A DNA stretch of 43,552 nt from Deltaproteobacteria bacterium (GTDB lineage Bacteria; Desulfobacterota; Desulfobulbia; Desulfobulbales; Desulfurivibrionaceae), in assembly GCA_026388695.1 (NCBI GenBank), contig JAPLJH010000039.1, positions 1 through 43,552 of the forward strand. Direction: 5' to 3'. This document shows, piece by piece, positions 431 through 35,280 of this stretch. The notes beneath the pieces are model-generated. The model saw nothing but the letters and a program-made list of their open reading frames with translations, had not been told where the DNA came from and did no database searches. Within the stretch, counting starts at the first letter, position 1, and each line of letters opens with the position of its first letter. Position numbers and translations under genes: made by a program.

Positions 431-534
431 TAACTGTTCCGCAGCACCACATCTGCTTTGTCATCGGCCTGCTCATGTGCAATAGCACACTTCGCAGGCC
501 TCTTCCTTGCATCTGTGGCACTGCGGAACAGTTA
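431..534 (+). repeat. Dispersed palindromic element, copy 1
   Basis: This is a 104-bp imperfect palindrome. The ends TAACTGTTCCGCAG and CTGCGGAACAGTTA pair perfectly over 14 bp. Inside are CAGCACCACATCTGC on the left arm, GCATCTGTGGCACTG on the right arm, an inner stem GGCCTGC/GCAGGCC and a tip stem GTGC-aata-GCAC. Related copies lie at 4293, 10540, 23266, 27723 and 35175. It sits between the divergent DUF748 and plsC genes, 95 bp upstream of the plsC start. An ATG within it can open a false N-terminal extension of plsC. Confidence 0.9.
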
Positions 535-629
535 TCTCCTTGTCAATTCCAGCAGCAAAAAAATGGCTAATTACAAAACGGCAGACCATTTTTTTGACAC
601 GATACCATAATTATACCGGGGAGTTCAAA

Positions 630-1346
630 GTGTTTACTTTCTTACGAGGTGTTCTGGTTTTGCTGCTTGCCCCCGTGCTCACCGGGCTGGTGAGCATCGG
701 GGCGATCATCATGGTTTTCATCTTCCGGCGGTCGGCGGCGGAGGTGCAGATTCTCCCCCGCACCCTGGGCAGGATTGTTGCCTGGCTCAGCGGGGTTTCG
801 GTCCGTATGACCGGGGCTGAACTTCTTGAGCCGGGGCAGCCCTATATCTTTGCCGCCAACCACCAGAGTCAGTTTGACATCTTTGCGCTCCAGGGCTATC
901 TGGGCTGCGATTTTCGCTGGTTGCTCAAGCTGGAGCTGTTCAAGATTCCTGTGTTTGGCACGGCCATGCATCTGGCCGGATATATTCCGGTGGATCGGGC
1001 GCATGGCCGCAAGGCGCTGAAAAGTCTGGATGAGGCGGCCCGGCGTATTGCCGGAGGCACCTCGGTCGCCATCTTTCCCGAGGGCACCAGGAGCCCGGAC
1101 GGCAAGCTGGGCCAGTTCAAGGCCGGGGCCATCGTTTTGGCGATCAAGGCCGGGGTGCCGGTGGTGCCGGTGGCCATTGTCGGCACCCATCAAATTTTGC
1201 CCAAGGGCAGGTTGCTGGTTAAGCCAGGCCGGGTGGAAATCCGGGTGGGTGCGCCCATTGCCACCAGCGAGTACACCGTTAAGCAGAAGCAGGAGCTGGC
1301 CGAGCGGTTGCAGGGCAAGGTGGCGGAATTGATGGCCCGTCCCTGA
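630..1346 (+). CDS. plsC: 1-acyl-sn-glycerol-3-phosphate acyltransferase (PlsC family)
   Basis: The 238-residue product would transfer a fatty acyl group to lysophosphatidic acid to make phosphatidic acid, the precursor of membrane phospholipids, at the inner membrane. An N-terminal hydrophobic segment (about residues 7-32) is followed by the catalytic HX4D motif NHQSQFD (H78, D83) and the glycerol-phosphate-binding motif FPEGTRS (149-155). The length is normal for the family. GTG at 630 is preferred because GGGGAG lies just upstream and the protein then begins at the hydrophobic segment; a longer frame from 507 starts inside the palindromic repeat. It converges with ldcA, leaving a 34-bp gap. 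Confidence 0.92.
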   Translation: MFTFLRGVLVLLLAPVLTGLVSIGAIIMVFIFRRSAAEVQILPRTLGRIVAWLSGVSVRMTGAELLEPGQPYIFAANHQSQFDIFALQGYLGCDFRWLLKLELFKIPVFGTAMHLAGYIPVDRAHGRKALKSLDEAARRIAGGTSVAIFPEGTRSPDGKLGQFKAGAIVLAIKAGVPVVPVAIVGTHQILPKGRLLVKPGRVEIRVGAPIATSEYTVKQKQELAERLQGKVAELMARP

Positions 1347-1380
1347 GGAGGGGCAATAGGGGCTGTTTGGGAATACCCGG

Positions 1381-2298
1381 CTATTGATTCAGGAGTTGCG
1401 GAAAAACAAGGCGGCCTGCGGAGGAATCTAGCTGCACCTCGGCACCCACGGGTAGGATCAGATTTCTGCTGCCATGGCCGCAGGGGAAGTTGGCCCAGAT
1501 AGGGATGGTTCGGTGGGCCAGCAGATCAAGCACCCGCTGCCAGATGGCTTCACGCTCTCCGCACTGGTCAAAATCTCCCAGGACAAGCCCAGCGATCTGT
1601 TCCAGCTTTCCCGCAGCCCAGAGATGGGTGAGCAGTCGGTCGATGCGGTAGGGCGCTTCGCCGATATCCTCCAGCACCAAAATAGTATCCCGCCAGTCCG
1701 GTTCAAAGGGGGTGCCCAGCAGGTGGACCAGGCTGGTCAAGTTGCCGGGCAGAAGCCTGCCGCTGGCCTGGCCGCCTTTGAGGATTTCCAACCCCTTTAT
1801 TTTGCTCTCCGGCCTTGGTCTGCCGGTGAGTAGGTCGAAAAAAGCATCCTGCGAATCGCGGTCGCTTCGGGCCAGGGTGGTGAGCATGGGGCCGTGGAAG
1901 GTGATGAGCCCGGTTTTCTGTTGGATTGTGGAGAGCAGGACCGTGAGGTCGGAAAAACCGATGAGTATCTTTGGCTGTTCACGGATAAGGGCAAGGTCCA
2001 GATCGGGCAGGAGGCGCAGGCAGCCGTATCCGCCGCGCACAGCCAGTATGGCCTTTACCTCCGGGTCGCGCCAGAGTTCGTGCAGCTCGGCCAGGCGCTG
2101 CTGGTCGGTGCCTGCCAGGTAGTCGTTGTGCCGGAGGATGTCGTTTCGGTGCCTGGTTTTAAATCCCAGCTCGGTGAGGATCTTCAGACCGGCGCGGAAA
2201 TCGCCTTCGTTGCGCACCGGTCCGGCCGGGGCGATAATGCCGATGGTCTCCCCTTTTTTGAGGGGGGCCGGGAGTATGGGCTTAGGTATTGCGTTCAT
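1381..2298 (-). CDS. ldcA: LD-carboxypeptidase (peptidase family S66, LdcA-like)
   Basis: The 305-residue product belongs to the S66 serine peptidases, which remove the terminal D-Ala from murein tetrapeptides during cytoplasmic peptidoglycan recycling. The N-terminal domain has GETIGIIAPAGP and VRGGYGCLRLLP. The probable nucleophile is S116 in LIGFSDLT, with E210 in VLEDIGEAPYR and H275 in FPCGHG as the other members of the Ser-Glu-His triad; this assignment is by family analogy. The frame is open far upstream, but MNAIPKP at 2298 gives the correct N-terminus. It overlaps the end of coaX by 17 bp, so the two are probably cotranscribed. Related microcin-immunity (MccF) proteins share the fold. 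Confidence 0.88.
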   Translation of the reverse strand: MNAIPKPILPAPLKKGETIGIIAPAGPVRNEGDFRAGLKILTELGFKTRHRNDILRHNDYLAGTDQQRLAELHELWRDPEVKAILAVRGGYGCLRLLPDLDLALIREQPKILIGFSDLTVLLSTIQQKTGLITFHGPMLTTLARSDRDSQDAFFDLLTGRPRPESKIKGLEILKGGQASGRLLPGNLTSLVHLLGTPFEPDWRDTILVLEDIGEAPYRIDRLLTHLWAAGKLEQIAGLVLGDFDQCGEREAIWQRVLDLLAHRTIPIWANFPCGHGSRNLILPVGAEVQLDSSAGRLVFPQLLNQ

Positions 2299-3055
2299 GG
2301 AGCAGTTGCAGTCCGTTGAGGGTGAGCATGGGATCCACGTGATCAAGGCTGGTGGTGTACGGGGCGATGAGGGTAGCCATGCCGCCTGTCGCCACTGCTT
2401 GCGGGAGATCCGGGGCCATTTGTTCCCGTAGGCGGTGGATAAGGCCGTCCACCATGCCGCCATAACCGAAAAGGATGCCCGACTTGATCGCGGCCACGGT
2501 ATTGGTGCCGATGGCGGCATCAGGCGGGGTGGAGATGTCAACCTGGGGTAGTTTGGCTGTCCGGCTGCCCAAGGCCTCCATGGCAATGGACAGCCCAGGG
2601 GCGATGGCGCCGCCCAGGTATTCACCCGCAGCCGAGACGCAGTCCCAGGTGATGGCGGTGCCGAAATCAACGACGATGAGAGGACATTTGAACCTGGCAT
2701 AGGCCGCCACGGCATTGACCAGCCGGTCGGCGCCGATCTCCGCAGGGTTGTCGATAAGAACCGGCATGCCGGTCTGCACCGTATCCGAGCCTACCATCAG
2801 CGGAACGGTATTTAGGTAGCGGGTGGCAAAGGCTGCCCAGACGGACTGCATAGTCGGCACCACGCTGGAGATGATGGTGTCGGAGATATCGTTGAAGCGG
2901 AGTCCTTCCATGATAAAAAGGCCGTGGAAGATGGCGGCCAGCTCATCAACCGTACTGCCCTTGTCGGTTTTCACCCGCCAGTGGCAGCGAAGTTTTGGCC
3001 CGGTGTAAACCCCGATCACCATGTGGGTATTGCCGATATCAACCGCCAGCAGCAT
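2282..3055 (-). CDS. coaX: Type III pantothenate kinase
   Basis: The 257-residue product would phosphorylate pantothenate, the first step of coenzyme A synthesis. Family motifs are visible: the N-terminal phosphate-binding DIGNT (residues 6-10), the pantothenate-binding GADRLVNAVAAY, and VVDFGTAITWD with LGGAIAPGL in the second half. The length matches bacterial CoaX (about 255). The N-terminus MLLAVDIGNTHMVIG is typical, so the start at 3055 is secure. The gene is first in a coaX-ldcA unit and divergent from cutA, with 288 bp between them holding an inverted repeat. Confidence 0.95.
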   Translation of the reverse strand: MLLAVDIGNTHMVIGVYTGPKLRCHWRVKTDKGSTVDELAAIFHGLFIMEGLRFNDISDTIISSVVPTMQSVWAAFATRYLNTVPLMVGSDTVQTGMPVLIDNPAEIGADRLVNAVAAYARFKCPLIVVDFGTAITWDCVSAAGEYLGGAIAPGLSIAMEALGSRTAKLPQVDISTPPDAAIGTNTVAAIKSGILFGYGGMVDGLIHRLREQMAPDLPQAVATGGMATLIAPYTTSLDHVDPMLTLNGLQLLHERNT

Positions 3056-3132
3056 GGGCGACTCCCTGTTTGTGGTGAGAAAAGCTGGTACGAATGTCCA
3101 AGCCGTTGTTCAAAGAATACCTGTAACATGGA

Positions 3133-3202
3133 ATGCCGTGATCGGCATAAGGTGCCGTAACGAAATGGCAAGAAATGCGATGGTTATTTCGTAACGGCAC
3201 CT
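3133..3202. repeat. Nested inverted repeats between coaX and cutA
   Basis: A small dyad, ATGCCG-tgat-CGGCAT (3133-3148), is followed by a larger one: AGGTGCCGTAACGAAAT (3150-3166) pairs with ATTTCGTAACGGCACCT (3186-3202), 16 of 17 bases matching, around a 19-base spacer. No T-run follows on either strand, so it is not an obvious terminator. Its place between divergent genes would suit a regulatory or structural element. It does not share sequence with the 104-bp palindrome family. Confidence 0.6.
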
Positions 3203-3277
3203 AAATGTACCAGAGATCGGGCCAGGCTGTCCATGCTCTTGGTCGCCTCTGCGAAAAACTTTGTTTGGCAAGAAGGG

Positions 3278-3306
3278 TTGACAGATTCCTGGCGGGGAAC
3301 AAGAAT
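3278..3306 (+). promoter_or_regulatory. Candidate sigma-70 promoter for cutA
   Basis: TTGACA (3278-3283) is a perfect -35 box. At 17 bp spacing AAGAAT (3301-3306) matches the -10 consensus at four of six positions. It lies about 40 bp upstream of the cutA start. This is a pattern match only. Confidence 0.35.
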
Positions 3307-3343
3307 GATGAGTGAATTGTCTGTATCGTAAGGAGTCTGCCCA

Positions 3344-3670
3344 ATGAACGAATATATCCAGGTTGCCACCACGGTCGCCACCGAGAAGGAGGCCGCAGCC
3401 ATTGCCGGATTGCTGGTTGAGCAGCGGCTGGCCGCCTGTGTTCAGGTGATCGGCCCCATGACCAGCCACTATCGCTGGCAGGGGAAGATCGAAACGGCGG
3501 AGGAATATCTCTGTCTTGCCAAAAGCCGCGCTACGCTTTATTCTGAAATTGAGGCAGCGATTAAGTCGATCCATCCCTATGAGGTTGCGGAGATCATCGC
3601 TACCCCGATGACTGCCGGGAGCAAGGAGTATCTGGCCTGGCTCGCCGCAGAAGTCAAGGAGCCGTCTTGA
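3344..3670 (+). CDS. cutA: Divalent-cation tolerance protein CutA
   Basis: The 108-residue product is a CutA1 protein, a small trimeric ferredoxin-like-fold protein linked to tolerance of copper and other divalent metals; its exact biochemical role is unsettled even in well-studied species. Visible family features are the N-terminal VATTVATEKEAAAIAGLLVEQRLAACVQV, then YRWQGKIETAEE and IKSIHPYEVAEIIATP. A good ribosome binding site (AAGGAG) precedes ATG at 3344. It runs straight into the Cys-rich mini-protein gene at 3673, so the two are probably cotranscribed. Confidence 0.93.
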   Translation: MNEYIQVATTVATEKEAAAIAGLLVEQRLAACVQVIGPMTSHYRWQGKIETAEEYLCLAKSRATLYSEIEAAIKSIHPYEVAEIIATPMTAGSKEYLAWLAAEVKEPS

Positions 3671-3672
3671 TC

Positions 3673-3879
3673 ATGGAGGGGGAACAGCCGAAAAAGGCGG
3701 GTCGTCGCCGAAATCCCAAGGAGTTTCAGTGTCATTGTTGTCGGCGGAAATTGCCCTTCTGCTGGAACTGCCCATGCGGCTTTCAGATCTGCGATGACTG
3801 TTTTAAAGAAAATATGTGGACCATCAGCAATGGCCCTACCTGGGTCTGCTCGGATTGCGGCAGGATACGGATGATGTAA
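3673..3879 (+). CDS. Small cysteine-rich, probably zinc-binding protein
   Basis: This 68-residue protein has a basic N-terminus (KKAGRRRNPKEF) and eight to nine cysteines arranged as CHCC, FCWNCPCG, ICDDC and VCSDCG. Paired C-x2-C and CDDC motifs suggest a treble-clef or zinc-ribbon fold, perhaps nucleic-acid binding; no function can be assigned. ATG at 3673 follows the cutA stop by 2 bp. A TTG at 3667 overlapping the cutA stop is an alternative that adds two residues. The context implies cotranslation with cutA, and a metal-related role is conceivable but unproven. Confidence 0.7.
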   Translation: MEGEQPKKAGRRRNPKEFQCHCCRRKLPFCWNCPCGFQICDDCFKENMWTISNGPTWVCSDCGRIRMM

Positions 3880-3939
3880 TTTTTGATTGCGTTTGAGACG
3901 GGACAGGGGGTGTCCTGAAAAAAAATGGGGGGAATGAGT

Positions 3940-4293
3940 ATGGACAACCAGCGAGAGAGCAGGCGGTGCCGAAGATTTCCGGTGAAGGACGGGGTGATTG
4001 CCCTGGATTCCGTGTACGGCGAAATCATCGATATGAGCTTCGGCGGATTGTCTTTTCGGTACACGGCCTATGACGACATGACCACCGAGCCTGCGGAGTT
4101 CGGCATCATCTTTGGCGGGGAGGAACTCTTTTTTGACAATATTCCCCTCACCAATGTCTGCGATATTGTCATGGATGAAAAGGCTGGAGGCGCGGGTGAG
4201 GTTAGGCGCAGGGGTATGGCCTTTGGCGATCTTGTTCCGGAGCAGGTAGTGACTCTGGCCAGGTTTATCCGGCAGTTTTCCCTGGAAAAATAG
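3940..4293 (+). CDS. PilZ-domain protein (probable c-di-GMP receptor)
   Basis: The 117-residue product is a single PilZ domain. The c-di-GMP-binding arginine motif is visible as RRCRRFPV near the N-terminus, and the second motif as IDMSFGGLSF. It probably acts as a cytoplasmic effector coupling c-di-GMP to motility or surface behaviour; no partner gene is adjacent. Three in-frame ATGs exist (3925, 3934, 3940). ATG at 3940 has the best spacing from the GGGGGG tract. A short hairpin GGACA-ggggg-TGTCC lies upstream at 3901-3915. The stop codon TAG abuts palindromic element copy 2. Confidence 0.8.
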   Translation: MDNQRESRRCRRFPVKDGVIALDSVYGEIIDMSFGGLSFRYTAYDDMTTEPAEFGIIFGGEELFFDNIPLTNVCDIVMDEKAGGAGEVRRRGMAFGDLVPEQVVTLARFIRQFSLEK

Positions 4294-4398
4294 TAACTGT
4301 CCAGCAGCACCACATCTGCTTTGTCATCGGCCTACTCATGTGCAATAGCACACTTCGCAGGCCTCTTTCGCGCATCTGTGGCACTGCTGAATAGTTAC
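4293..4398 (+). repeat. Dispersed palindromic element, copy 2
   Basis: The ends GTAACTGTCCAGCAG and CTGCTGAATAGTTAC pair over 15 positions with one G-T and one C-A. The inner arms, the GGCCTAC/GCAGGCC stem and the GTGC-aata-GCAC tip are nearly identical to copy 1. It begins at the last base of the PilZ stop codon and lies between PilZ (plus) and the YaiI-family gene (minus), where it could also act as a transcript-end hairpin. Confidence 0.9.
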
Positions 4399-4453
4399 GG
4401 AAAATAAAGAGAGAAAATTTTTGTCGGTGAGGCGCCATTCATCGAGGTGCGGT

Positions 4454-4912
4454 TTACGGTGCGGCAGTTGCATGCCGGGTCAGGAACTTGTCCAACTGGT
4501 TGGCAAACGCCTGGAGATGCACCTTGCTCAAGGCCGATGGTCCGCCGGTAATGGTGCCCGTTGAGCGCATCTCGTCCATGAAGTCCCTGCGCGCCAGGTG
4601 TTCCTGGATGGTATCTGGCGTATAGAGCGTGCCCCGAGGATTCAGGGCGGTTGCCGAGGCGGCGACCACCTCGGCAGCGAGGGGAATATCCGCAGTGATT
4701 ACCAGGTCGCCCGGCTCAAGGCTCTCGATGATTCGGGCATCTGCGACATTGAATCCTGCCGTGACCTGAACCGTTTTGATAAAGGGTGAGCGCGGGATTT
4801 TTAGGTTGTGGTTTGCCACCAGGATACTCTCTATCCGCATCCGCTCTGCAGCCCGGAAGAGAATTTCCTTTATTGGGCCGGGGCAGGCATCTGCGTCAAT
4901 CCAAATGCGCAT
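4454..4912 (-). CDS. yaiI: UPF0178 family protein (YaiI/YqxD-like)
   Basis: The 152-residue product starts [18 protein letters not shown] and contains [37 protein letters not shown] and the C-terminal TGGPSALS. These are hallmarks of the UPF0178/DUF188 family, which has a PIN-like nuclease fold with conserved acidic residues. Biochemical function is not established. The length is standard. It lies downstream of the glycine-zipper lipoprotein gene on the same strand, separated by 99 bp containing a strong hairpin. Confidence 0.88.
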
Positions 4913-4942
4913 GGTCTAGGTATGGCCTTTTTTTCTCGTGAA

Positions 4943-4982
4943 GTTCGGGGCGGCATTCTGTCGCAGGAATATCGCCCCGAAC
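4943..4982. terminator. Stable 10-bp hairpin downstream of the glycine-zipper lipoprotein gene
   Basis: GTTCGGGGCG (4943-4952) and CGCCCCGAAC (4973-4982) pair perfectly, and the enclosed bases extend the stem with ATTC/GAAT. No T-run follows on the minus strand, so a classic Rho-independent terminator is not demonstrated. It may be a 3'-end stabilising or Rho-associated hairpin for the lipoprotein transcript. Confidence 0.45.
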
Positions 4983-5011
4983 ATTGTCTGTCTGGAGTAT
5001 CCAGCAGGCGA

Positions 5012-5476
5012 TTATTTCTGGATCACCCATCTGCCCTCATTGTCCCGGCAAGCCGTGGAGATCACTTTTTCCGGGCGGCCGTCCACGGTGGCGAGGATTT
5101 CTGCCTCACGGCAGACCTGGCCGGACGGCTGCGTGTAAGCAGGTTTTGGCGTTACGGAGTATGAACGGTTGTTGTCGGGATTGACCCATTGGCTGCGCTG
5201 ATGGGAAGGCGAGGTTTCGTATACCTGATTGAGCTGCGCCTGGTCGTATTTATCCATTTCGTTGCCAACGATATAGCCCAGCATGCCGCCTACTGCTGCG
5301 CCGAGTAAGGTTCCCTTGGTGTTGTGGCCGATGGCCTGACCGACGATGGCGCCAGTTGCCGCGCCGATAGCCCCGCCGCTTGCGCCTTTTGAGGTATTAT
5401 TGGCGGCGCACCCGGAGGTGATCAGCATGAAAATAATCGCCATTGCCGCCATCTGTAGTCCATGATTTTTCTGCAT
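5012..5476 (-). CDS. Glycine-zipper lipoprotein (17-kDa surface antigen / SlyB-like)
   Basis: The 154-residue product begins with a lipoprotein signal ending in the lipobox ITSGC, so it should be lipidated and envelope-anchored. It continues with a Gly/Ala-rich glycine-zipper (GASGGAIGAATGAIVGQAIG and GTLLGAAVGGMLGYIVGNEMD). The C-terminal half has VCREAEILATVDGRPEKVISTACRDNEGRWVI, like the Rickettsia 17-kDa antigen family. It probably has a structural role in the outer membrane. A clear AAGGAG precedes ATG at 5476. Confidence 0.85.
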   Translation of the reverse strand: MQKNHGLQMAAMAIIFMLITSGCAANNTSKGASGGAIGAATGAIVGQAIGHNTKGTLLGAAVGGMLGYIVGNEMDKYDQAQLNQVYETSPSHQRSQWVNPDNNRSYSVTPKPAYTQPSGQVCREAEILATVDGRPEKVISTACRDNEGRWVIQK

Positions 5477-5555
5477 TGTGTTCTCCTTATATTGTTGAGT
5501 TTTTTTGTCCTGGTCATGTCTTAAGCCGCATCAAAAGATGCGATTGTTCATGCAA

Positions 5556-5584
5556 AAGATATAACGCTTACCATTAAACGTCAA
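5556..5584 (-). promoter_or_regulatory. Candidate sigma-70 promoter for the glycine-zipper lipoprotein
   Basis: On the minus strand TTGACG (5584-5579) is followed after 17 bp by TATCTT (5561-5556). The boxes match consensus at five and four of six positions. It lies about 80 bp upstream of the start at 5476, beside the thiD stop codon. Confidence 0.35.
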
Positions 5585-5600
5585 TGGCGAGTGCTTGATC

Positions 5601-6449: not shown

Positions 6450-6465
6450 GGGGCGAATCCCCTGC

Positions 6466-6978: not shown

Positions 6979-7040
6979 GGTGTGTTACTCCTTTGTTCGG
7001 TTGCGGTGGTGGGTGAGCGTAATATGCTGTCGGGGATGGG

Positions 7041-7259: not shown

Positions 7260-7261
7260 GG

Positions 7262-8976: not shown

Positions 8977-8998
8977 GCCTGTTTTTCAGGTGGCGGCC

Positions 8999-9172: not shown

Positions 9173-9198
9173 ATAATGCCTGCCGTTGTGGGAGAATT

Positions 9199-10445: not shown

Positions 10446-10539
10446 AGTTTCATTCGGACAGGGCTGTCAAACAAAGACTGGGCGACTGTGTCGCCGTACT
10501 CGTTGACCAGAGACGGGAAAACGTGGCTCAACCGCTGGA

Positions 10540-10650
10540 ATGTAAACATTCAGCGGTGCCGCAGATGCGCGGAAGAGGCCTGCGAGCTATAGCCCGCCTA
10601 TGCAAGCAGGCCGATGACAAAGCAGATGTGGTGCTGCTGAATGTTTACAT
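10540..10650 (-). repeat. Dispersed palindromic element, copy 3 (inverted orientation)
   Basis: The ends ATGTAAACATTCAGC and GCTGAATGTTTACAT pair perfectly over 15 bp. Read on the minus strand, the arms match the other copies (CAGCACCACATCTGC, TTGTCATCGGCCTGC), but the tip is replaced by a different self-pairing sequence (ATAG-gcgggc-CTAT). The minus-strand 3' flank continues with GGTTGAGCCAC, shared with the flank of copy 4. The element ends 17 bp before the engB start codon and so occupies its 5' leader. Confidence 0.9.
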
Positions 10651-10667
10651 GTCGCCAGGGAGAAAAT

Positions 10668-21832: not shown

Positions 21833-21997
21833 GAGCAGGTGCAGGGAAGTGTTGGGCGGCGGGCGGGCCTGCTTGGCAATTAATGCTTTCTTGCTAAACG
21901 GTTTTGGGGTAAAATGCCTCACTCTGTTTTTGGGGCATTTCTCAATGACTCCAAGGGGATAATAGATCATTTCAGGAAGAAGCCGAGGAGATTTTTG

Positions 21998-23272
21998 ATG
22001 AAGATTCTGGTTGTTGGTTCGGGGGGCAGGGAACATGCTCTGGTCTGGAAATTGCGGCAGAGCCCCAGGGTAACGAAGATTTTTTGCGCTCCGGGCAATG
22101 CCGGTATCAGCGGACTGGCAACCTGCGTCAAGATCAGCGCCACCGATATTGAGGCGCTGGCCGACTTCGCTAAAACGGAAGGGATTGGTCTCACCGTAGT
22201 TGGGCCTGAAGTTCCCCTTTCCCTGGGAATCGTCGATTCTTTTGAAGAAAAAGGCCTGCGGGCTTTTGGTCCCCGGCGCAACGCTGCCACCCTTGAAGGC
22301 AGTAAGGTCTTCATGAAGGATCTGCTTGAAAAATATCATATCCCCTCTGCTTTTTATGCGACCTTTACGGACCGAGAAGAGGCGCTGTCGTATATTGAAA
22401 AGCAGGCCGCGCCGATGGTGGTCAAGACCGATGGACTGGCTGCGGGCAAGGGCGTAGTGGTGGCTCAAACCATTGCCGAGGCCAAGGCGGCGGTGGACCT
22501 GTTCATGAAGGAGAAGGCATTTGGCGAGGCAGGCAATCGGGTAGTGGTCGAGGAGTTTCTCTGTGGCGAGGAGGCCTCTTTTCTTGCCTTCACCGATGGG
22601 GAGACGGTGCTCCCCCTGCCGACCTCCCAGGATCACAAGGCGATTTTTGATGGCGATAAAGGCCCGAACACCGGTGGCATGGGCGCTTATTCTCCTGCCC
22701 CGGTGGTGACCGAGGCCCTGCATCGACAGGTCATGGAAACGGTGATGCTGCCGACGGTAAAAGCCTTGGCTGCAGAAGGCTGCCCGTACAAGGGTGTGCT
22801 CTATGCCGGCCTGATGATTGATAAGGGGGTGGTCAAGGTGCTTGAGTTCAATTGTCGGTTTGGTGATCCCGAGGCCCAGCCCCTGCTCATGCGGCTTAAA
22901 ACCGATCTGGTGGAGGTGATGGAGGCGGTGGTTGACGGACGTCTGTCCGAGATTTTCCTTGAGATCGACCCGCGGCCTACGGTTTGTGTGGTCATGGCGG
23001 CTGGTGGCTATCCCGGGAAGTACGTGAATGGCAAGGCCATCGCGGGGCTTGGCAAAGCGGGACAGCACCAGGATGTGGTGGTTTTTCACGCCGGCACTGC
23101 ATTGCAGGGCGATACTGTTGTTACCAACGGCGGCCGGGTGCTGGGCGTTACCGCCATCGGCGACACGGTGCAGGAGGCCATTGCCAAGGCATACAAGGCT
23201 GCGGAAGAGATCAGTTGGGACGGCTGTTATTACCGCAAGGATATCGGCCGCAAGGCTTTGGACCGAATGTAA
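21998..23272 (+). CDS. purD: Phosphoribosylamine-glycine ligase (GAR synthetase)
   Basis: The 424-residue ATP-grasp enzyme joins phosphoribosylamine and glycine in purine synthesis. It begins KILVVGSGGREHALVWKLRQSP. The ATP-grasp core has VVKTDGLAAGKGVVVAQT and VVEEFLCGEEASFLAFTDG, then DHKAIFDGDKGPNTGGMGAYSPAP, and metal-binding EFNCRFGDPEAQPLL near the end. GAGGAG precedes ATG at 21998 with good spacing; the upstream open frame is not part of the protein. Its TAA stop codon lies inside palindromic element copy 4. Confidence 0.96.
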   Translation: MKILVVGSGGREHALVWKLRQSPRVTKIFCAPGNAGISGLATCVKISATDIEALADFAKTEGIGLTVVGPEVPLSLGIVDSFEEKGLRAFGPRRNAATLEGSKVFMKDLLEKYHIPSAFYATFTDREEALSYIEKQAAPMVVKTDGLAAGKGVVVAQTIAEAKAAVDLFMKEKAFGEAGNRVVVEEFLCGEEASFLAFTDGETVLPLPTSQDHKAIFDGDKGPNTGGMGAYSPAPVVTEALHRQVMETVMLPTVKALAAEGCPYKGVLYAGLMIDKGVVKVLEFNCRFGDPEAQPLLMRLKTDLVEVMEAVVDGRLSEIFLEIDPRPTVCVVMAAGGYPGKYVNGKAIAGLGKAGQHQDVVVFHAGTALQGDTVVTNGGRVLGVTAIGDTVQEAIAKAYKAAEEISWDGCYYRKDIGRKALDRM

Positions 23273-23377
23273 ACGTCCAGCAACACCGCATTTGCTTTGT
23301 CATCGGCCTGCTCATGTGCACCAGCACACTTCGCAGACCTTTTTCGCTCATCTGCGGCACTGCTGAACGTTTACATT
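23266..23377 (+). repeat. Dispersed palindromic element, copy 4
   Basis: The ends AATGTAAACGTCCAGCA and TGCTGAACGTTTACATT pair over 17 positions with a single C-A mismatch. Inner arms and the GGCCTGC/GCAGACC stem match the family; the tip is GTGC-acca-GCAC, with the stem kept and the loop changed. The TAA of the outer stem is the purD stop codon (23270-23272). The downstream flank GGTTGAGCCAC is shared with copy 3. It separates purD from purE. Confidence 0.9.
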
Positions 23378-23439
23378 AAAGAGGTTGAGCCACTTTTTTG
23401 TTTCTGGCGAATGAATACGATCGAAAAGGGGAGAGAGTT

Positions 23440-24557: not shown

Positions 24558-24574
24558 TTTTTCTATTTATACAT

Positions 24575-25933: not shown

Positions 25934-25940
25934 AGCGCTG

Positions 25941-27725
25941 ATGACCGAGCCCACATTTGACTCCATATTCGATGATCTGATCGACGCCAATGAGGAACTG
26001 CAAAGTTTTCTGGCGATTCTCAATGCGTTGTTGCCGGAGGCTTCGGTCCTTCTGGTGAGCGAAGCAGGCACGGTGCTTGATGGGGCGCGGCCTCTGGCGC
26101 TTGTTCAGCCGGTGCGGGAGCGGCTTGTTCAAGAGGCAAAAGCGGCCGATGGCTTTGTCGCGGGAAAGGCGGATAGCGGCGCCCGTTGCCATGCGGTGTA
26201 TCTTGCCAAATTGTCGGCGGTGCTGATCGTTTCTTGCGCTGCGGCTCCGGAAGAGGATTGGCGGCCAGGTTCCGCGCTCACCACTTTGTTGCAGAATACC
26301 ATTGATCTTGCCTTGCACAGACAGGAGCGGGAGATGCTTGTCGCCGATCATGAACAGTCGGTCAGGCAGATCAACATCCTCCAGCAGCAGCACGGCAAGC
26401 TTATTGAGGACAACTACCGTCAGTACCGGCTCAACCAGGATCGGGAAAAAGAGTATGCCAGGAAGTTGGAAAGTGAAATAACCAAACAAACCGCCGAGTT
26501 GCGAGAAGCCAATGTGCGGCTTGAGGAGATCAGTCAGCTGAAGAGCGATTTTCTGGCCAACATGAGTCACGAACTGCGGACGCCCATGAACGCCATCATC
26601 GGCTTCAGCGAGCTCCTGTCCGAAACTCCCCTTGCCGAAGAGCAGCTCGATTATACCAGAACCATCAGTCAATCCGCCGCAAGCCTGCTGAGCCTGATTA
26701 ACGATATCCTTGATCTGGCAAAAATCGAGGCGGGAAAACTCGAGCTTGAACGCCTGCCCTTTGAGCTTGCCGAGGTGGTCGACAATGTGGCCGCCATGTT
26801 CAAGATTCCTGCCAGGGAAAAAGGGGTTGTTGTCGCCTGCAAGATTGACAACCGTATCCCGAAAAGAATTATGGGGGACAGCAACCGCCTGCGTCAGGTT
26901 TTGATCAATCTGGCTGGAAACGCCATGAAGTTCACCGAGCAGGGCGGGATTGATATTCTGGTTGACTATGAGCGCGAAGCTGCGGGCCAGATTGTCAGTC
27001 GTTTTTCGGTGCGTGACAGCGGCATAGGTATTCCCGCCGACAGGGTTGAGGCAATTTTTGAAAAGTTTACCCAGGCCGACGGCTCGACCACCCGGAAATA
27101 CGGGGGCACGGGGCTGGGGTTGGCCATTTGTCTTCAGCTCGTGGAACTCATGGGCGGTCGTCTCGCGGTGGAGAGCGAGGTGGGCAAGGGCAGTACCTTT
27201 TATTTTGTGATCCCCCTGGAAGAGGCTCCGGCAGAGATCATCTCCTTGAAAGAGCATAAGGCTGCGGGCCGTGAAAAGGCTGCCAGCGGCGGGAGGATTC
27301 TTCTGGTTGAGGATAATGCGGTCAACCAGCGGCTGGCCAGCATCCTGATTACCCGGGAAGGCTACGAGGTCGAGGTGGCCTCCGATGGGGCTGAGGCCTT
27401 GGAACATCTTCGCCATCAGGTTTTTGATCTTGTTCTGATGGATGTTCAGATGCCTAATATGGACGGCATGGAGGCCACCAGAAAAATCAGGGAGATTGAG
27501 GCAGACCCGGCCTTGCGGCAGAATTATGTCGGGCTGCGCACCCTGAAAGAGCCGCTGGCTATAGTCGGGCTCACGGCTCATGCCAGAAAAGAGGATGAGA
27601 CAGCCTGTTACGATTCAGGGATGAACGGCTTTCTCACCAAGCCCATTATCAAAGCAAAGCTGGCCATGATCCTCAGTGAGATGATGCCGCGGATCTCCTG
27701 CCTGGAAAACAAAGATCCCTCGTAA
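25941..27725 (+). CDS. Cytoplasmic hybrid sensor histidine kinase with C-terminal receiver
   Basis: The 594-residue product has no membrane helix. An N-terminal sensor-like region (1-130) leads into a coiled coil (about 135-200). HisKA has the phospho-accepting H210 in FLANMSHELRTPMNAIIGFSELL. The ATPase domain shows the N box NLAGNAMKF, VRDSGIGIP and GGTGLGLAI. A receiver from about 453 has acceptor D501 in LVLMDVQMPNMDG and a conserved K in FLTKPI. The input signal is unknown. The stop codon TAA belongs to palindromic element copy 5, so the last few residues may be affected by its insertion. Confidence 0.92.
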   Translation: MTEPTFDSIFDDLIDANEELQSFLAILNALLPEASVLLVSEAGTVLDGARPLALVQPVRERLVQEAKAADGFVAGKADSGARCHAVYLAKLSAVLIVSCAAAPEEDWRPGSALTTLLQNTIDLALHRQEREMLVADHEQSVRQINILQQQHGKLIEDNYRQYRLNQDREKEYARKLESEITKQTAELREANVRLEEISQLKSDFLANMSHELRTPMNAIIGFSELLSETPLAEEQLDYTRTISQSAASLLSLINDILDLAKIEAGKLELERLPFELAEVVDNVAAMFKIPAREKGVVVACKIDNRIPKRIMGDSNRLRQVLINLAGNAMKFTEQGGIDILVDYEREAAGQIVSRFSVRDSGIGIPADRVEAIFEKFTQADGSTTRKYGGTGLGLAICLQLVELMGGRLAVESEVGKGSTFYFVIPLEEAPAEIISLKEHKAAGREKAASGGRILLVEDNAVNQRLASILITREGYEVEVASDGAEALEHLRHQVFDLVLMDVQMPNMDGMEATRKIREIEADPALRQNYVGLRTLKEPLAIVGLTAHARKEDETACYDSGMNGFLTKPIIKAKLAMILSEMMPRISCLENKDPS

Positions 27726-27873
27726 CTGCTCAGCAGCACCAGCAGCACTACATCTGCTTCGCAGTCTTACAGCGCTCGCTTAGCTGTCATCGGCTGGCTC
27801 GTGTGCAATAGCCCCCTCATCGGCCTCTTCCGCGCATCTGTGGCAGCAGTGAAGCGGCGTTGCTGAGCAGTTC
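27723..27873 (+). repeat. Dispersed palindromic element, copy 5 (expanded, degenerate)
   Basis: AACTGCTCAGCA (27724-27735) pairs perfectly with TGCTGAGCAGTT (27861-27872). The copy is about 150 bp. It has a duplicated CAGCAGCAC unit on the left, an insertion around TTCGCAGTCTTACAGCGCTCG, and a decayed inner stem and tip. ACATCTGC, TGTCATCGGC, GTGTGCAATAGC and CCGCGCATCTGTGGCA remain recognisable. Its first TAA is the stop codon of the hybrid kinase. Confidence 0.85.
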
Positions 27874-27907
27874 GCCCCTTTTTCGATTCGTTTTGATTCC
27901 CGTTTTT

Positions 27908-28408: not shown

Positions 28409-28409
28409 T

Positions 28410-30044: not shown

Positions 30045-31415
30045 ATGAAGCTTGACCCGTTTGCTAAAGTGAAAAAAAACAGGAGCGCACTTCCAGCGCT
30101 GGTCCTTGGGGGAACGGGGTTATTCGCCCTGGTTTTGGTGGCTTTCTTCTGGCTGGTGGGGGAGATGGAAAGGCCGCAGGTGGTGATCAACGGGGAGAGT
30201 TCCCATCTCGGTCTGAGTAAACAGCTCACCGTAACGGCCAGCGATGCAAAGAGCGGCTTGAGCTCCATCGAGGTTGCCCTGATTCAGGAGGGCAAGAAGG
30301 CGGTGCTGCTGGAAAAAACCTATCCCAGGGCAGGATATCTCTCCGGGGCCGGGTCGCATAAGATCGAGGAGACCATCGAGGTTACGCCCAAGGCTCTTGG
30401 CTTTAAGGACGGAGCAGCGGAGCTGGTGGTGAAGGCGGTTGATTTCTCCTTGTGGAACTGGTTCAGGGGCAATATCACCGTGCAGTCCTCGGTGGTTACC
30501 ATCGACACCAAGCCGCCAGCGATCAGCGTGATGGAGTCTCCCAAGTATATCAAGGGCGGCGGGGCCGGGGTGGTTGTCTATCGGGTCAGCGAGCCTGCGG
30601 GCAGGCACGGGGTGATGGTCAACGATATCTTCTATCCTGGGTTTGCCATGCCCAAGCGGGGTGCGGGAATCTATGGCGCCTGCATGGGGCTGCCCCACGA
30701 TATCGCCAAGATCGAAACGGCCTTTGTCGTTGCGGCGGATCAGGCGGGAAACGAGGCCAAGTCACCGTTCACCATGGATCTGCATGTGCGCAACATTGTC
30801 AGTGACAAGATCAGCATCAGCGACGCGTTTCTTTCCGCCAAGCTGCCGGAATTCGCCACCTATTATCCGGAGTTGAGCGGCACACCGGTCGAGCAGTATA
30901 TCAAGGTGAACAACGATATCCGGCAGGCCAATTACAAAAAGATTCAGGAGATTTGCTCAAAGTTTCAGCCAGAGCGCCTCTGGGACGGCCGTTTCGGGCG
31001 AATGGAAGGCAGCCCCAAGGCTGGATACGCCGATCACCGCACCTACCTGTACAACAACGAAAAGATCGACGAGCAGGTCCATCTGGGGGTTGATATCGCC
31101 TCGCTGGAGCATGCCAATGTCGAGGCCGCCAACCGGGGGCTGGTGGTTTTTGCCGAGTACCTGGGGATTTACGGGAATACCGTTATTCTGGACCACGGTC
31201 AGGGGATATTCAGCCTGTACTCCCACATGAGCCAGATCGATGTCCCGGTGGGCACCATGGTTGAGAAGGGCGGGCTTTTGGGCCTTACCGGTACCACCGG
31301 CATGGCCGGGGGCGATCATCTCCACTTCAGCATGCTGGTCAACGGGATCTTTGTCGATCCGCGTGAGTGGTGGGACGAAGAATGGTTGAAAATTCATATG
31401 CTGAGTGTGCTCTAA
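30045..31415 (+). CDS. Membrane-anchored M23 family metallopeptidase
   Basis: The 456-residue product has a basic N-terminus and one membrane helix (about 17-38), so the rest is periplasmic. A beta-rich Ig-like region follows (about 45-270, with VTIDTKPPAISV). The C-terminal LytM domain keeps the zinc ligands H346 and D350 in HLGVDIAS and H425/H427 in DHLHFSM, indicating an active DD-endopeptidase on peptidoglycan. GAGGATGG precedes ATG at 30045. It lies 3 bp before mutL, an unusual functional pairing but clearly one transcription unit. Confidence 0.88.
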   Translation: MKLDPFAKVKKNRSALPALVLGGTGLFALVLVAFFWLVGEMERPQVVINGESSHLGLSKQLTVTASDAKSGLSSIEVALIQEGKKAVLLEKTYPRAGYLSGAGSHKIEETIEVTPKALGFKDGAAELVVKAVDFSLWNWFRGNITVQSSVVTIDTKPPAISVMESPKYIKGGGAGVVVYRVSEPAGRHGVMVNDIFYPGFAMPKRGAGIYGACMGLPHDIAKIETAFVVAADQAGNEAKSPFTMDLHVRNIVSDKISISDAFLSAKLPEFATYYPELSGTPVEQYIKVNNDIRQANYKKIQEICSKFQPERLWDGRFGRMEGSPKAGYADHRTYLYNNEKIDEQVHLGVDIASLEHANVEAANRGLVVFAEYLGIYGNTVILDHGQGIFSLYSHMSQIDVPVGTMVEKGGLLGLTGTTGMAGGDHLHFSMLVNGIFVDPREWWDEEWLKIHMLSVL

Positions 31416-31418
31416 ACC

Positions 31419-33290
31419 TTGTCCAGAATCAGGATTCTTCCGGAAAATCTGGCCAACCAGATCGCCGCTGGCGAGGTTGTCGAGCGGCCTGCCTCGGTGG
31501 TCAAGGAGCTGCTGGAAAACGCCATCGACGCGGGGGCCAGCCAGATCGGCATCCAGGTGGAGGGCGACGGCACCCGCTTGATCCGGGTGATCGACGACGG
31601 CTCGGGCATGGATCAGGATGATGTGCTCCTCTGCCTGGAGCGTCATGCCACCAGCAAGATTACAAGCCTTGCCGAGCTTGGTTCCATTCGCTCCCTTGGG
31701 TTCAGGGGCGAGGCCGTTCCCAGTATCGCCTCGGTGTCTCGGATGCGGATTACCTCGCGGCCTGCGGCACAAGCCCTGGGAACCCAACTCGATCTCCGTT
31801 TCGGCAAGGTCCTCAAGGTGCATGAGATGGGGGGCAGCCCTGGCACTGCCTTTGAGATTACGGATCTCTTCGGCAATGTCCCGGCCCGGAAGAAGTTTCT
31901 CAAATCCACCAGAACGGAGCTGGCTCACATCGAAGAGGTGGTGAAGAATTATGCCCTGGCCCGACCGGAGCTGGGTTTCAGTTTCAGCGTGGATGGCCGT
32001 GAGGTTCTCCATTTGCCTGCCGGGTTGGACACGCCCCGGAGCAGGGCGGAACGGATTTTTGGCAAGGTGGGTGGGGCTCTGGTGGAGTTGGGTCTGCAGG
32101 TCCCAGCCGGGAACGACGAGACCGTGCCCGGAGTTTCCGGGTTTCTTCTGCCGCCGGATGCTCCTGCCGCAGCCCGGCTCAGAATCTTTGTCAATGGCCG
32201 GGCGATCCACGACCGCCTGATCGCCCATGCGGTGAGCGAAGGTCTCCAGAACTATCTCATGAAAGGCCGAGGTCCGGGTGGGGTGCTTTTTCTGACCATG
32301 CCGCTCGTCAGCGTTGATGTGAATGTCCACCCCACCAAGCAGGAGGTCCGGTTTCACAAGCCGACCGCAGTACACCAGGCCGTGGTCGCTGCGGTCCAGA
32401 CCGCTATGGCGGTTTATCAGCAGACCTTGAAGCAGGAGATATTCCGTCCGACTCCCGCTGGGCCGGGCATGGCGCAGACCCAATCTACTCCAGTCATGGC
32501 TTATTCTCCGGTCTCCGCGTATCCGCCGCCTGCGGTGCGGGAGTCGATGTCGCTTTTTAAGACTGCCGTTGGTGCTCAGCCCGTTGTTCTCCAGAATGCG
32601 CCTGTAAAGGAACAGCCTCCCGTGTCGTCGGAGATTGGCGCGGAGATACAGCGCGCCTTTGCGGCAGAGCAGCCCGAACCTTCCGCCGTGTCGGGGGAAG
32701 AGGCTGCTCCTTCCCCCCGTGGATTGCGTTATCTCGGACAGGTGCTGGACACCTATCTGCTCTGCGCCACGGAAAACGGCCTGCTTGTCATTGACCAGCA
32801 TGCCGCCCATGAGCGACTGCTGTTTGAATCGTTGAAGAGGCAGTTTGCCAGCAAAAAGATCGCCCGCCAAGCCTTGCTCTTCCCAAAGGTTCTGGAATGC
32901 ACCCTGGAGGAGAACCAGATTCTCAAGCAGTATGCCGAGGAGATTGCCGCCCTTGGGGTCGAGATAGAGGATTTTGGCGGGGGCAGCCAGGTGGTGAAGG
33001 CTGTGCCTGCGGTGCTTGGCCGTTCTTCGGTCGAGGAGGTGATGGCCGGGATTTTTTCCCGATTTTCTGAAGCAGGTGCGGGGAAAGGCGGGGTGCGGGC
33101 CGAAGAGGTGCTTTCCGACATGGCCTGCAAGGCCGCGATCAAGGCAGGGCAAAGCCTGACCGCCAGGGAAGCCGAAGCCCTGCTGGAGGAGATGCAGCGG
33201 GCCGACATCTTTTCCCATTGCCCTCATGGCCGACCGGTGGCCAAGAGTTTCACCCCCCACGACATTAAGAAATGGTTCTATCGCGGCTGA
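31419..33290 (+). CDS. mutL: DNA mismatch repair protein MutL
   Basis: The 623-residue product couples mismatch recognition to strand incision. The GHKL ATPase domain has LANQIAAGEVVERPASVVKELLENAIDAGA, DDGSGM, TSKITSLAEL and LGFRGEAVPSIASVS. A Pro-rich linker spans about 345-425. The C-terminal domain carries the endonuclease motif DQHAAHERLLFE plus ACKAAIKAG and FSHCPHGRP, so this MutL should be nicking-competent, as in bacteria lacking MutH. The start appears to be TTG at 31419, the first codon giving the conserved N-terminus RIRILPE, and the ribosome binding site is weak. Confidence 0.95.
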   Translation: MSRIRILPENLANQIAAGEVVERPASVVKELLENAIDAGASQIGIQVEGDGTRLIRVIDDGSGMDQDDVLLCLERHATSKITSLAELGSIRSLGFRGEAVPSIASVSRMRITSRPAAQALGTQLDLRFGKVLKVHEMGGSPGTAFEITDLFGNVPARKKFLKSTRTELAHIEEVVKNYALARPELGFSFSVDGREVLHLPAGLDTPRSRAERIFGKVGGALVELGLQVPAGNDETVPGVSGFLLPPDAPAAARLRIFVNGRAIHDRLIAHAVSEGLQNYLMKGRGPGGVLFLTMPLVSVDVNVHPTKQEVRFHKPTAVHQAVVAAVQTAMAVYQQTLKQEIFRPTPAGPGMAQTQSTPVMAYSPVSAYPPPAVRESMSLFKTAVGAQPVVLQNAPVKEQPPVSSEIGAEIQRAFAAEQPEPSAVSGEEAAPSPRGLRYLGQVLDTYLLCATENGLLVIDQHAAHERLLFESLKRQFASKKIARQALLFPKVLECTLEENQILKQYAEEIAALGVEIEDFGGGSQVVKAVPAVLGRSSVEEVMAGIFSRFSEAGAGKGGVRAEEVLSDMACKAAIKAGQSLTAREAEALLEEMQRADIFSHCPHGRPVAKSFTPHDIKKWFYRG

Positions 33291-33317
33291 GCCCGGTTAA
33301 GTCATCGTCAAAAAATC

Positions 33318-33342
33318 ATCTGGCCGTTTTAGGCAGCCAGAT
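33318..33342. terminator. Hairpin between mutL and purC
   Basis: ATCTGGC (33318-33324) and GCCAGAT (33336-33342) form a perfect 7-bp stem. An A-run precedes it on the plus strand, giving a T-run on the minus strand, so the terminator orientation is antisense to both neighbours. It may be a weak bidirectional terminator after mutL. Confidence 0.4.
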
Positions 33343-33503
33343 GGCATAAGGAACCGTACAGTAGACAGCATAAATGGCCTGTTGTTTCTGAACGGATTCT
33401 AAAAAAATATCGCGTAAGCGGCCGGGAAAATGTATCCTTTTCCGAAAGCATCCAGCATATCCATGCCGCATCGCGGCTGTAATTTTTCGATAAGGAAGAC
33501 GTC

Positions 33504-34394
33504 ATGACAACGCCGGTAACCCAAACGAATTTTGCCAATCTCCATCTGCTGCATCGCGGCAAGGTCCGCGATCTTTACGATGTGGAAGACCATCTGCTCA
33601 TGGTGGCCTCGGACCGAATCTCTGCCTATGACGTGGTCATGGATGATCCCATCCCAGACAAGGGCGCGATCCTGACCAAGCTTTCCCTGTTCTGGTTCGA
33701 TTATCTCAAGGACATTGTGCCCAATCATCTGATCACGGCAAATGTGGCGGAATATCCGGCTGCCTGCGCTCCGTACCGGGAGCAGTTGGCGGGCCGAAGC
33801 CTGCTGGTGAAAAAGGCCAAGCCCCTGCCGGTGGAGTGTATAGTCCGCGGCTATCTCTCCGGTTCGTTCTGGCAGGCCTATAAGAAAGACCCGAATGTTT
33901 GCGGCTTTGCCCTGCCTGCCGGGATGCGGGAGTCGGACAAGTTTCCCGAGCCGCTTTTCACCCCGTCCACCAAGGCGGCGCTTGGCATGCACGATGAGAA
34001 TATCTCCCTGGTCGAGATGGAAAATCTCCTGGGTAAGGAACAGACCGCCAAGATCAAGGACATCTGTGTGCGCCTCTACATGAAGGCTGCGGACTATGCC
34101 CGCAGCAGGGGCATCATCATTGCCGACACCAAGTTTGAACTGGGTATCTATAACGGCGAGATAATTCTCATTGATGAGGTGCTGACCCCGGATTCTTCCA
34201 GATTTTGGCCCCAAGATCAGTACCAGCCCGGCGCCGGGCAGCCGAGTTTCGACAAACAGTTTCTGCGGGACTATCTTTCCACCCTCAATTGGGGAAAGAA
34301 CCCGCCGCCGCCCAAGCTGCCCCAGGAAATCATCGAGAAAACCGCTTCCCGTTATCGGGAGGCGTTGGTCAAGATAACCGGCGGAGATATTTAA
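33504..34394 (+). CDS. purC: Phosphoribosylaminoimidazole-succinocarboxamide synthase (SAICAR synthetase)
   Basis: The 296-residue product joins CAIR and aspartate in purine synthesis. It has [32 protein letters not shown] at the start, [38 protein letters not shown] and [15 protein letters not shown] near the end. It is the longer, eukaryote-like form (about 295 residues) rather than the 240-residue E. coli form. AAGGA precedes ATG at 33504. It is separate from purD and purE in the same window. Confidence 0.96.
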
Positions 34395-34403
34395 AATTTA
34401 CAG

Positions 34404-34431
34404 CTCACAGCTTGCAGCTTTAAGCTGTGAG
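34404..34431. repeat. Hairpin between purC and the lipoprotein gene
   Basis: CTCACAGCTT (34404-34413) pairs perfectly with AAGCTGTGAG (34422-34431) around an 8-base loop. There is no T-run. I recall the motif AGCTCACAGCTTGCAGCTT as common intergenic sequence in related genomes, so this may be a simple dispersed hairpin. Confidence 0.5.
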
Positions 34432-34454
34432 TCCTTGTGCCGCGAGGTGGTGTG

Positions 34455-35168
34455 ATGTCGAGGCCCGTTGTCGGGGTCCTGTCCAGAACCGTTGCCCTCA
34501 TACCGATGGTCTTTGTTCTGCTCGGGCTTGCCGGTTGCGGGGTTTCCGGGAGCAGTGCCAGCGATGGCGTCAGGGAATTTTTCACCCCGACGGATGTTAG
34601 CATCATCCGTCATCATATGCAGCAGTATCGCGGCTCTTTGCGGGATTTCACCGCACGTCTGTACGCCAAGAATCCAAAATACGAGAAAGACCCGGCTAAA
34701 CAACGGCAAAAGATCGATGCCATTTTCGGTCCCCTGGCCATCGGGGAGCAGGTGTATGCCTACAAGCCCTCCCATGAAGTACTCACTGCGGCGTTTCAAG
34801 GGGAGGCGAGTGAGTCGGACCGGGTATACCTGCTGAGCCTTGGCCTGTGGAAAAGCATCCGGGAGGCTTACAATATTAAAGAAGATGATCTTTTTCTAAG
34901 CGGTCTCCAGGTCTCTCTGGAGCGGTTGCAGCGGCTACATCATAATGTCAGTCAGGTGAACTGGCGGTTGAAAACCTACAAGGACAAAAACGGAAAGCTA
35001 TTGTTCCTCACCAATGAGGCCGGGGAAAGCGGTTATCTCAATATGGGCTATGAGGTTATCATGACCCAGATTCTCACCCGCATTGAGGACGATATCATCA
35101 TGCGGGGAGGATTGCCGCAGCAATACATGTTCAAAATGTCCACCCTGTTTGTCGGCATCATCATCTGA
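34455..35168 (+). CDS. Predicted lipoprotein of unknown function
   Basis: The 237-residue product has a signal peptide ending in the lipobox LAGC (VFVLLGLAGCG), so it should be lipidated and envelope-anchored. The mature part is helical and charged: FFTPTDVSIIRHHMQQYRGSLRDFTARLYAKNPKYEKDP, then YLLSLGLWKSIREAYNI and a conserved-looking end IEDDIIMRGGLPQQYMFKMSTLFVGIII. I do not recognise the family. ATG at 34455 is preferred, with GAGGTGG upstream. It is downstream of purC and 6 bp before element copy 6. Confidence 0.75.
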   Translation: MSRPVVGVLSRTVALIPMVFVLLGLAGCGVSGSSASDGVREFFTPTDVSIIRHHMQQYRGSLRDFTARLYAKNPKYEKDPAKQRQKIDAIFGPLAIGEQVYAYKPSHEVLTAAFQGEASESDRVYLLSLGLWKSIREAYNIKEDDLFLSGLQVSLERLQRLHHNVSQVNWRLKTYKDKNGKLLFLTNEAGESGYLNMGYEVIMTQILTRIEDDIIMRGGLPQQYMFKMSTLFVGIII

Positions 35169-35174
35169 TCGCGG

Positions 35175-35280
35175 GCAACTGTCCAGCAGCACTGCATCTG
35201 CGTTGTCATCGGCCTGCTCATGTGCAATAGCACACTTCGCAGGCCTCTTCCTAGTATCTGCGGCACTGCTGAACAGTTGC
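35175..35280 (+). repeat. Dispersed palindromic element, copy 6
   Basis: GCAACTGTCCAGCAG and CTGCTGAACAGTTGC pair over 15 positions with a single C-A mismatch. The inner GGCCTGC/GCAGGCC stem and GTGC-aata-GCAC tip are intact. The first paired position after the closing G-C is C-G here where copy 1 has T-A, a compensatory change. The downstream flank has GGTTGAG at nearly the same distance as in copies 3 and 4. It lies between the convergent lipoprotein and dnaJ-like genes. Confidence 0.9.

Follow-up and report, generated by a model that had tools for sequence, protein, structure and literature searches.

The 43,552-nt contig JAPLJH010000039.1 of a Deltaproteobacteria bacterium from the family Desulfurivibrionaceae (GenBank assembly GCA_026388695.1), referred to here over its whole length as the window, carries six copies of a hairpin that belongs to a large family of dispersed repeats. 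The reading of these hairpins as miniature inverted-repeat transposable elements (MITEs), non-autonomous inverted-repeat transposons, of the IS66 type is well supported, and we assign it a probability of about 0.85. The two hairpin arms do covary, in part through changes that postdate insertion, and the hairpin cores are often replaced in place.

Transposon structure and the probable link to IS66

The repeat unit is a hairpin of ~106 nt, whose arms are the terminal repeats GTAACTGTCCAGC.../...GCTGAACAGTTAC; in many cases it is extended by a tail of ~45 nt, which closes with one more terminal repeat, GCTGGATAGTTAC. The first-pass annotation of the window had taken the palindrome (about 104-150 bp) as the unit, and the mobile unit is often longer, with a tail of usually 43-47 nt adjoining many copies. 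In size (~106 nt, or ~150 nt with the tail), in its terminal inverted repeats and in carrying no transposase gene, the unit has the structure of a MITE. GTAA...TTAC ends typify the copies, and three window copies compared with sister species revealed an empty site and a duplication at each. The copy at 4293 is a hairpin alone flanked by GGAAAATA, and its site is empty in the sister species G010 and G001; the copy at 430 (hairpin plus a 39-nt tail) is flanked by AAAACSGC and absent from G005; and the copy at 10542 (tail plus hairpin) is flanked by (G/A)TGTCGCC with empty sites in G013, G005 and G016. Among 190 copies with GTA...TAC ends, 8-bp duplications identical in at least seven positions were found at the tail end of 39 copies and at the hairpin end of four others (43/190, non-overlapping), compared to 0/760 in a shifted-flank control. 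The tail motif was present in 77 of these copies against 10/190 in an upstream control.

Two loci depart from this pattern. At the site of the window copy at 10540, the hairpin is cleanly absent inside the unit in L125 (G006) with the tail and target duplications remaining, which fits slippage between short direct repeats. In L106 (G007), a copy with its tail is flanked by a direct repeat of ~18 nt, exceeding the usual 8-bp duplication.

IS66 elements have GTAA ends and an 8-bp duplication, and their transposition is poorly understood. The hairpin family was followed in other genomes using a covariance model built from five window copies. A genome of the same order (G048), which bears hairpins (43 matches, both strands counted), also contains a 1729-bp element (L145) with a single long gene, GTAACTATCCAGC at both ends and an 8/8 duplication, GAATATTT. 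Its protein is an IS66 TnpC, scoring 289.7 bits with the model NF033517 (cut-off 180). Relatives of this protein (E 1e-30) are present in 25 of 242 genomes of the order; ends were readable at 13 of 30 loci encoding them, including L145, and all 13 have 8/8 duplications and GTAAC ends, with GTAAC[TC]AT[TC]CAGC at five. In another hairpin-bearing genome (G482), a fragment of an IS66 element (85% identity across 99 aa) is followed by GCTGGATAGTTAC, the sequence that also ends two of three hairpin tails examined there, the third differing by one base. Three hairpins examined in G482 and two in G048 have perfect or near-perfect 8-bp duplications (8/8 in both G048 copies). The hairpins agree with an IS66 element both in their ends and in the length of the duplication. 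Published IS66 ends given in PMC12888890 also begin with GTAA (GTAAGCGTCCGGCGAACTCACCTT, GTAACCGTCCGGGCA), and a table in PMC3281130 lists 8-bp repeats for two IS66 elements.

The first-pass annotation had likened the palindromes to MITEs and had proposed a search for a cognate transposase. The likeness is borne out by the terminal repeats, the 8-bp target duplications and the empty sites, and by IS66 elements that share the ends; the transposase search returned IS66 elements with matching ends in related genomes and none in the own genus. Hairpins share a genome with an IS66 element in G048 and with an IS66 fragment in G482, and no such case was found in the 17 own-genus genomes; among the 58 genomes of the own genus and its relatives taken together, 18 contain the IS66 domain PF03050. 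The hairpin is carried by 11 of 16 IS-bearing genomes, and the best hairpin scores come from the genomes with the nearest TnpC.

Several observations weigh against the IS66 reading. No duplication at 7/8 was found at 147 of the 190 copies. Neither the PF03050 model nor the L145 protein at E 1e-30 found an IS66 TnpC in the 17 own-genus genomes (mostly drafts), and therefore an IS66 donor in this genus can only be inferred. Five of the 16 IS-bearing genomes lack the hairpin, and across these 16 genomes TnpC identity was weakly correlated with hairpin score (rho 0.47, p 0.065; rho 0.64, p 0.010 with G498 dropped after the fact). Finally, the IS ends are unlike the hairpin beyond the first 13-15 bases, which leaves the origin of the hairpin core unaccounted for.

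In the proposed mechanism, TnpC supplied from elsewhere in the cell or from outside would bind the GTAA ends and move the hairpin unit into intergenic DNA. The hairpins share GTAA ends and the 8-bp duplication with IS66 insertion sequences, whose TnpC (NF033517) is encoded by the putative parent, but the hairpin unit is geneless and, as a whole, structured. The likely parents have one long gene, TnpC, whereas the classic IS66 elements covered in PMC12888890 have TnpA and TnpB too. Like MITECca01 and MITEPsy1, as these are introduced in PMC9769881 and PMC3189936, the unit is short and geneless with IS-like terminal repeats. Those elements were linked to IS982 and perhaps IS5, and they differ from the present family, whose hairpin arms covary in place and which spans an order.

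The likeness to REP elements, also suggested by the first-pass annotation, did not hold, and mobilisation as a REP/REPIN-like repeat by a RAYT, a Y1 transposase, is highly improbable. The hairpins are long palindromes that, like the REPIN and REP systems described in PMC3116915, are intergenic, high-copy and non-autonomous, and the genome has a RAYT-type gene (228 aa) and an IS200-type gene (143 aa). However, the regions surrounding the two genes (11 kb and 9 kb; L062, L063) contain no model match, 8-bp duplications are present, and a one-contig relative (G019) revealed no replication-strand bias: with origins placed at 50-kb intervals, 60-69 of its 132 copies were co-directional. The hairpins thus differ from REPINs in having target duplications and neither a RAYT link nor a strand bias. 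The RAYT-type gene (L062:4990-5676) and its surroundings contain pieces resembling two other transposases and dispersed repeats of ~34 nt.

The core site of integron attC is GTTRRRY. Most right ends of the hairpins read GTTAC followed by variable bases, and the copies occupy unrelated sites, some with duplications; on these features attC sites were rejected, with no integrase search made.

Fold, covariation and distribution of the hairpins

All six places listed by the first-pass annotation are occupied in the window. Five are good hairpins of 106-107 nt, with fold z-scores of -5.7 to -9.4 on the top strand and no equal among 200 shuffles. The copy at 27722-27872 is degenerate: it contains an insert of ~25 nt, is matched by the covariance model with E 2e-6 and has a fold z-score of +0.20, not above shuffles. 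The inner stem GGCCTGC/GCAGGCC attributed to the whole family differs in this copy, and the copy at 23269 reads GCAGACC instead of GCAGGCC. RNAalifold identified two-sided changes at seven of 34 pairs in the five good copies, so the earlier count of at least five compensatory pairs is upheld.

The covariation also holds on a wider alignment, made of the 29 copies of near-standard length among the 56 places found in the own genome. Two-sided changes affect 22 of 35 pairs (shuffled mean 9.9), and 93.5% of cells are paired. The covariation score was 0.268 compared to a shuffled mean of 0.106, exceeding all 500 shuffles, and it fell to 0.069 or less when the 3' partners were slid by 1-3 columns.

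The own genome (G000; 2.58 Mb, 114 contigs, 87% complete) gave 86 model matches with both strands counted, corresponding to 56 distinct places, when the best 150 of 543 candidates were scored. Including relatives, 52 of 58 genomes have matches, among them all 17 of the own genus. In a phylum-wide sample, 23 of 395 genomes matched, 14 of them outside the order, several of the latter weakly. The one-contig relative G019 carries a diverged subfamily with matches for 150 of 150 scored candidates and 132 distinct places, and at least 57 hairpin places are present in G482; the three genomes thus have the many dispersed copies typical of a MITE. Among the matches listed, the exact core pattern in named genomes was confined to metagenome-assembled Desulfobulbaceae, Deltaproteobacteria, Desulfobacterales or Proteobacteria.

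Copy 1 was unmatched in plasmid and phage collections, and viral contigs contained no exact match to the core pattern. The Rfam 15 models produced no match in the window at gathering score; around copy 1, a lax threshold gave two weak miRNA-family matches, far under their gathering scores. No element recognisable as these hairpins was found in the open-access literature searched; this and the Rfam result agree with the earlier remark that the sequence was not recognised.

Arm changes and core replacement at shared insertion sites

Comparison of the own copies with G013 showed that 29 of 56 have both flanks in one G013 locus and 27 share the insertion site; for L013 and W277, no element-sized segment lies between the G013 flanks. 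The 319 unique copies gathered yielded 126 pairs sharing both flanks. Dropping within-locus pairs and those with an outer-stem score <12 or a left junction identical at <10/14 positions left 85 pairs, which were reduced to 41 by removing repeated use of copies and to 33 by excluding pairs with more than nine changes in an arm. These 33 orthologous pairs have 46 left-arm and 61 right-arm changes. Two-sided compensatory changes number 22, compared to a mean of 2.0 and a maximum of 8 in 5000 permutations, and 15 pairs have at least one matched arm change. Before thinning, 64 of the 85 pairs (at most nine changes per arm) contained 66 compensatory changes, with 6.8 as the mean of the permutations. 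Since the matched changes occur at shared sites, arm matching continues once a copy has inserted, and descent from different founders accounts for only part of it. The first-pass annotation had argued that the fold is preserved either by selection or by some form of copying; the matched changes after insertion support this statement as far as it reaches, and either of the two may be at work.

Cores are often replaced in place. Of 41 same-site pairs, only eight have their closest interior in the orthologue, which ranks below tenth in 30, and these foreign interiors make exchange between copies likely. In the pair L021/L221, for example, ~28 nt of each outer arm agree around unlike cores, and the core from G000 matches other copies at 97-99% identity. 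The core has been lost in two copies (L087, L088), which retain one CATCTGC, whereas intact copies have two. In addition, two modules come and go at orthologous sites (L067, L068, L212, L221 and others): one of ~25 nt, of the type CGCAGTCTCGC...GCTCGCTTAGC, sits at varied points inside the hairpin, and one of 14 nt, of the GCAGCGAAGCGGCG type, lies in the right arm.

Assembly errors of metagenome-assembled genomes (MAGs) are a very improbable source of the matched changes and core swaps. Most of the genomes resemble short-read MAGs and the repeats are probably about as long as the reads. The isolate-like pair G019/G024 yielded no comparable core: along one 20-kb stretch, G024 has an intact hairpin at none of five G019 copies, one being cleanly absent (162 nt), one a decayed-looking remnant and one seemingly absent (alignment edges), with unlike sequence at the other two. 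However, by the design of the pairs the compared arms should lie within 17 nt of the flanks, and pairs with the three-contig genome G007 (L094, L098, L106, L114) show matched changes too.

The arms themselves are highly diverse. All four base pairs occur at stem position 5 (C-G 105, A-T 32, G-C 30, T-A 16 of 190), and the 190 copies contain 107 arm types, 86 of which were seen once. Simple exchange among existing copies leaves such arms unexplained and, with arm types mostly private, was rejected as the only source of the arm changes; besides exchange, either arm copying or selection is required. At the same time, a CA/CA mismatch persists in 137 of the 190 copies, which template switching alone does not explain. 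Both facts count against a simple account of the arms by DNA copying.

A pure form of template switching, in which errors copy one arm onto the other with neither fold selection nor exchange, appears unlikely as the explanation of the in-place changes. Template switching has been described as giving rise to compensatory changes in hairpins (PMC8794818), and private, fully matched arms do exist (e.g. L090, L027), but at stem positions 16-17 the classic CA/CA mismatch was found in 137 copies against seven matched ones, at least two of the seven merely by a shifted register. Furthermore, the orthologue has the nearest interior in 0 of 15 pairs with matched arm changes compared to 7 of 18 without (p 0.009), which points to block replacement. 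Both stem sides change in match here as in the template-switch hairpins of PMC8794818, which that paper describes for RNA genes; the present hairpins are dispersed transposons with core replacement. We give an even chance to a joint proposal, in which arm matching would be mostly DNA-level copying, through template switching in the hairpin combined with exchange among many dispersed copies, and the bottom-strand fold would be kept because transposition needs it and not for host use.

The first-pass annotation described the fold on the top strand, and the bottom strand folds better. Its RNA energy is lower in all 270 copies tested (mean -68.2 compared to -52.8 kcal/mol). On this strand the outer stem runs uninterrupted for up to 22 bp, since the conserved top-strand mismatches change character: CA/CA turns into tandem U.G/G.U, TC/TC into tandem GA/GA and C.A into G.U. 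These features, together with unpaired stretches that are among the most conserved, would suit a mobile structured RNA or single-stranded DNA (ssDNA), in which every copy, once inserted, would have its bottom strand produced and put to use, and fold selection would drive the compensatory changes. One-sided in-place changes that leave a G.U pair also favour the bottom strand (21 versus 5 on the top strand), and the flanks, with an A+C content of 0.491, indicate no directional pressure. However, 15 of the 21 events fall at stem positions 8-10 and the ratio elsewhere is 6 to 5; with the asymmetry gone outside these positions, it mostly represents an inherited, conserved design feature and is weakened as a sign of in-place selection. 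In addition, sister species differ in which insertions they carry, same-direction neighbouring genes run with the top strand (21 : 8), and no Rfam match was found. We therefore regard a structured RNA or ssDNA of this kind as doubtful. The same holds for a composite, also improbable in our estimate, in which an IS66-mobilised element has a bottom-strand structured RNA or ssDNA with a role of its own, its fold being selected in place and its core exchanged like a cassette; if true, this would be a mobile hairpin family with dozens to more than 100 copies per genome across an order.

Window features, gene surroundings and implications

Table 1. Hairpins, tails and target duplications in the window (window coordinates).
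Feature	Position	Strand	Evidence or remark
Copy 1, left target duplication AAAACCGC	422..429	+	empty site in G005 is AAAACGGC; left versus right 7/8
Copy 1, hairpin	430..535	-	bottom strand is the better-folding strand
Copy 1, tail with third terminal repeat GGCTAATTAC at its end	536..574	+	compared with the empty site in G005
Copy 1, right target duplication AAAACGGC	575..582	+	empty-site comparison
Copy 2, left target duplication GGAAAAATA, one extra A	4284..4292	+	empty site GGAAAATA in G010; G001 empty too
Copy 2, hairpin, tail-less	4293..4398	-	fold and empty-site comparison
Copy 2, right target duplication GGAAAATA	4399..4406	+	empty-site comparison
Copy 3, target duplication GTGTCGCC at tail end	10488..10495	+	empty sites in G013, G005, G016
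Copy 3, tail, element in opposite orientation	10496..10541	-	locus and empty-site comparison
Copy 3, hairpin; window + strand is the element's bottom strand	10542..10648	+	fold, model match
Copy 3, target duplication ATGTCGCC at hairpin end, 7/8	10649..10656	+	empty-site comparison
Copy 4, hairpin; GTAA gives the TAA stop of open reading frame 21914-23272	23269..23374	-	
Copy 4, tail ending GGCGAATGAATAC; flanks GACCGAAT / GATCGAAA match 6/8	23375..23418	+	by eye
Copy 5, degenerate, ~25-nt insert; GTAA gives the TAA stop of open reading frame 25941-27725	27722..27872	-	
Copy 6, hairpin, ends GCAAC...GTTGC	35175..35280	-	
Copy 6, tail, probably shortened, ending CTGGATAGTTAG	35281..35308	+	by eye

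The tail of copy 4 is of the same type as those of L010 and L088, and inspection of the copy 6 flanks by eye revealed no clear target duplication. Other repeats occur near two of the window sites. At or beside the element position of the 4293 site, L122, L124 and L126 (G003, G009, G015) have another repeat-like sequence of ~150 nt, GATGGCGTCGCA..., which in two of the three ends in TGCTTAGCCATC. Near window position 10540, the same intergenic region of several sister species contains a further inverted repeat of the type GGAGCCGTAACGAA...TTCGTAACGGCTCC (L121, L123, L124, L127, L131 and L132).

Gene context was taken from crude calls of open reading frames. The copies are mostly intergenic, with 5 of 56 inside a frame of at least 90 aa, and they lie near 3' ends of genes (26 of 55 within 10 nt, median distance 19 nt compared to 73 nt for 5' ends), where the GTAA end can provide the stop codon, as at 23269 and 27722. 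The 21 : 8 excess of own-genome loci whose same-direction neighbours run with the top strand has a p value of 0.024 on these calls.

The hairpins form a large repeat family of Desulfobulbales and their relatives, linked to IS66 and unnamed according to the Rfam and open-access literature searches. Its surprising part is the combination of in-place covariation with core exchange, in which the arms may be matched through hairpin copying, exchange or selection. Compensatory changes are usually strong evidence of a functional RNA, and here they occur after insertion in the ends of an apparent transposon. The 319 copies, many of them orthologous, thus represent natural replicates for separating fold selection from hairpin copying and gene conversion.

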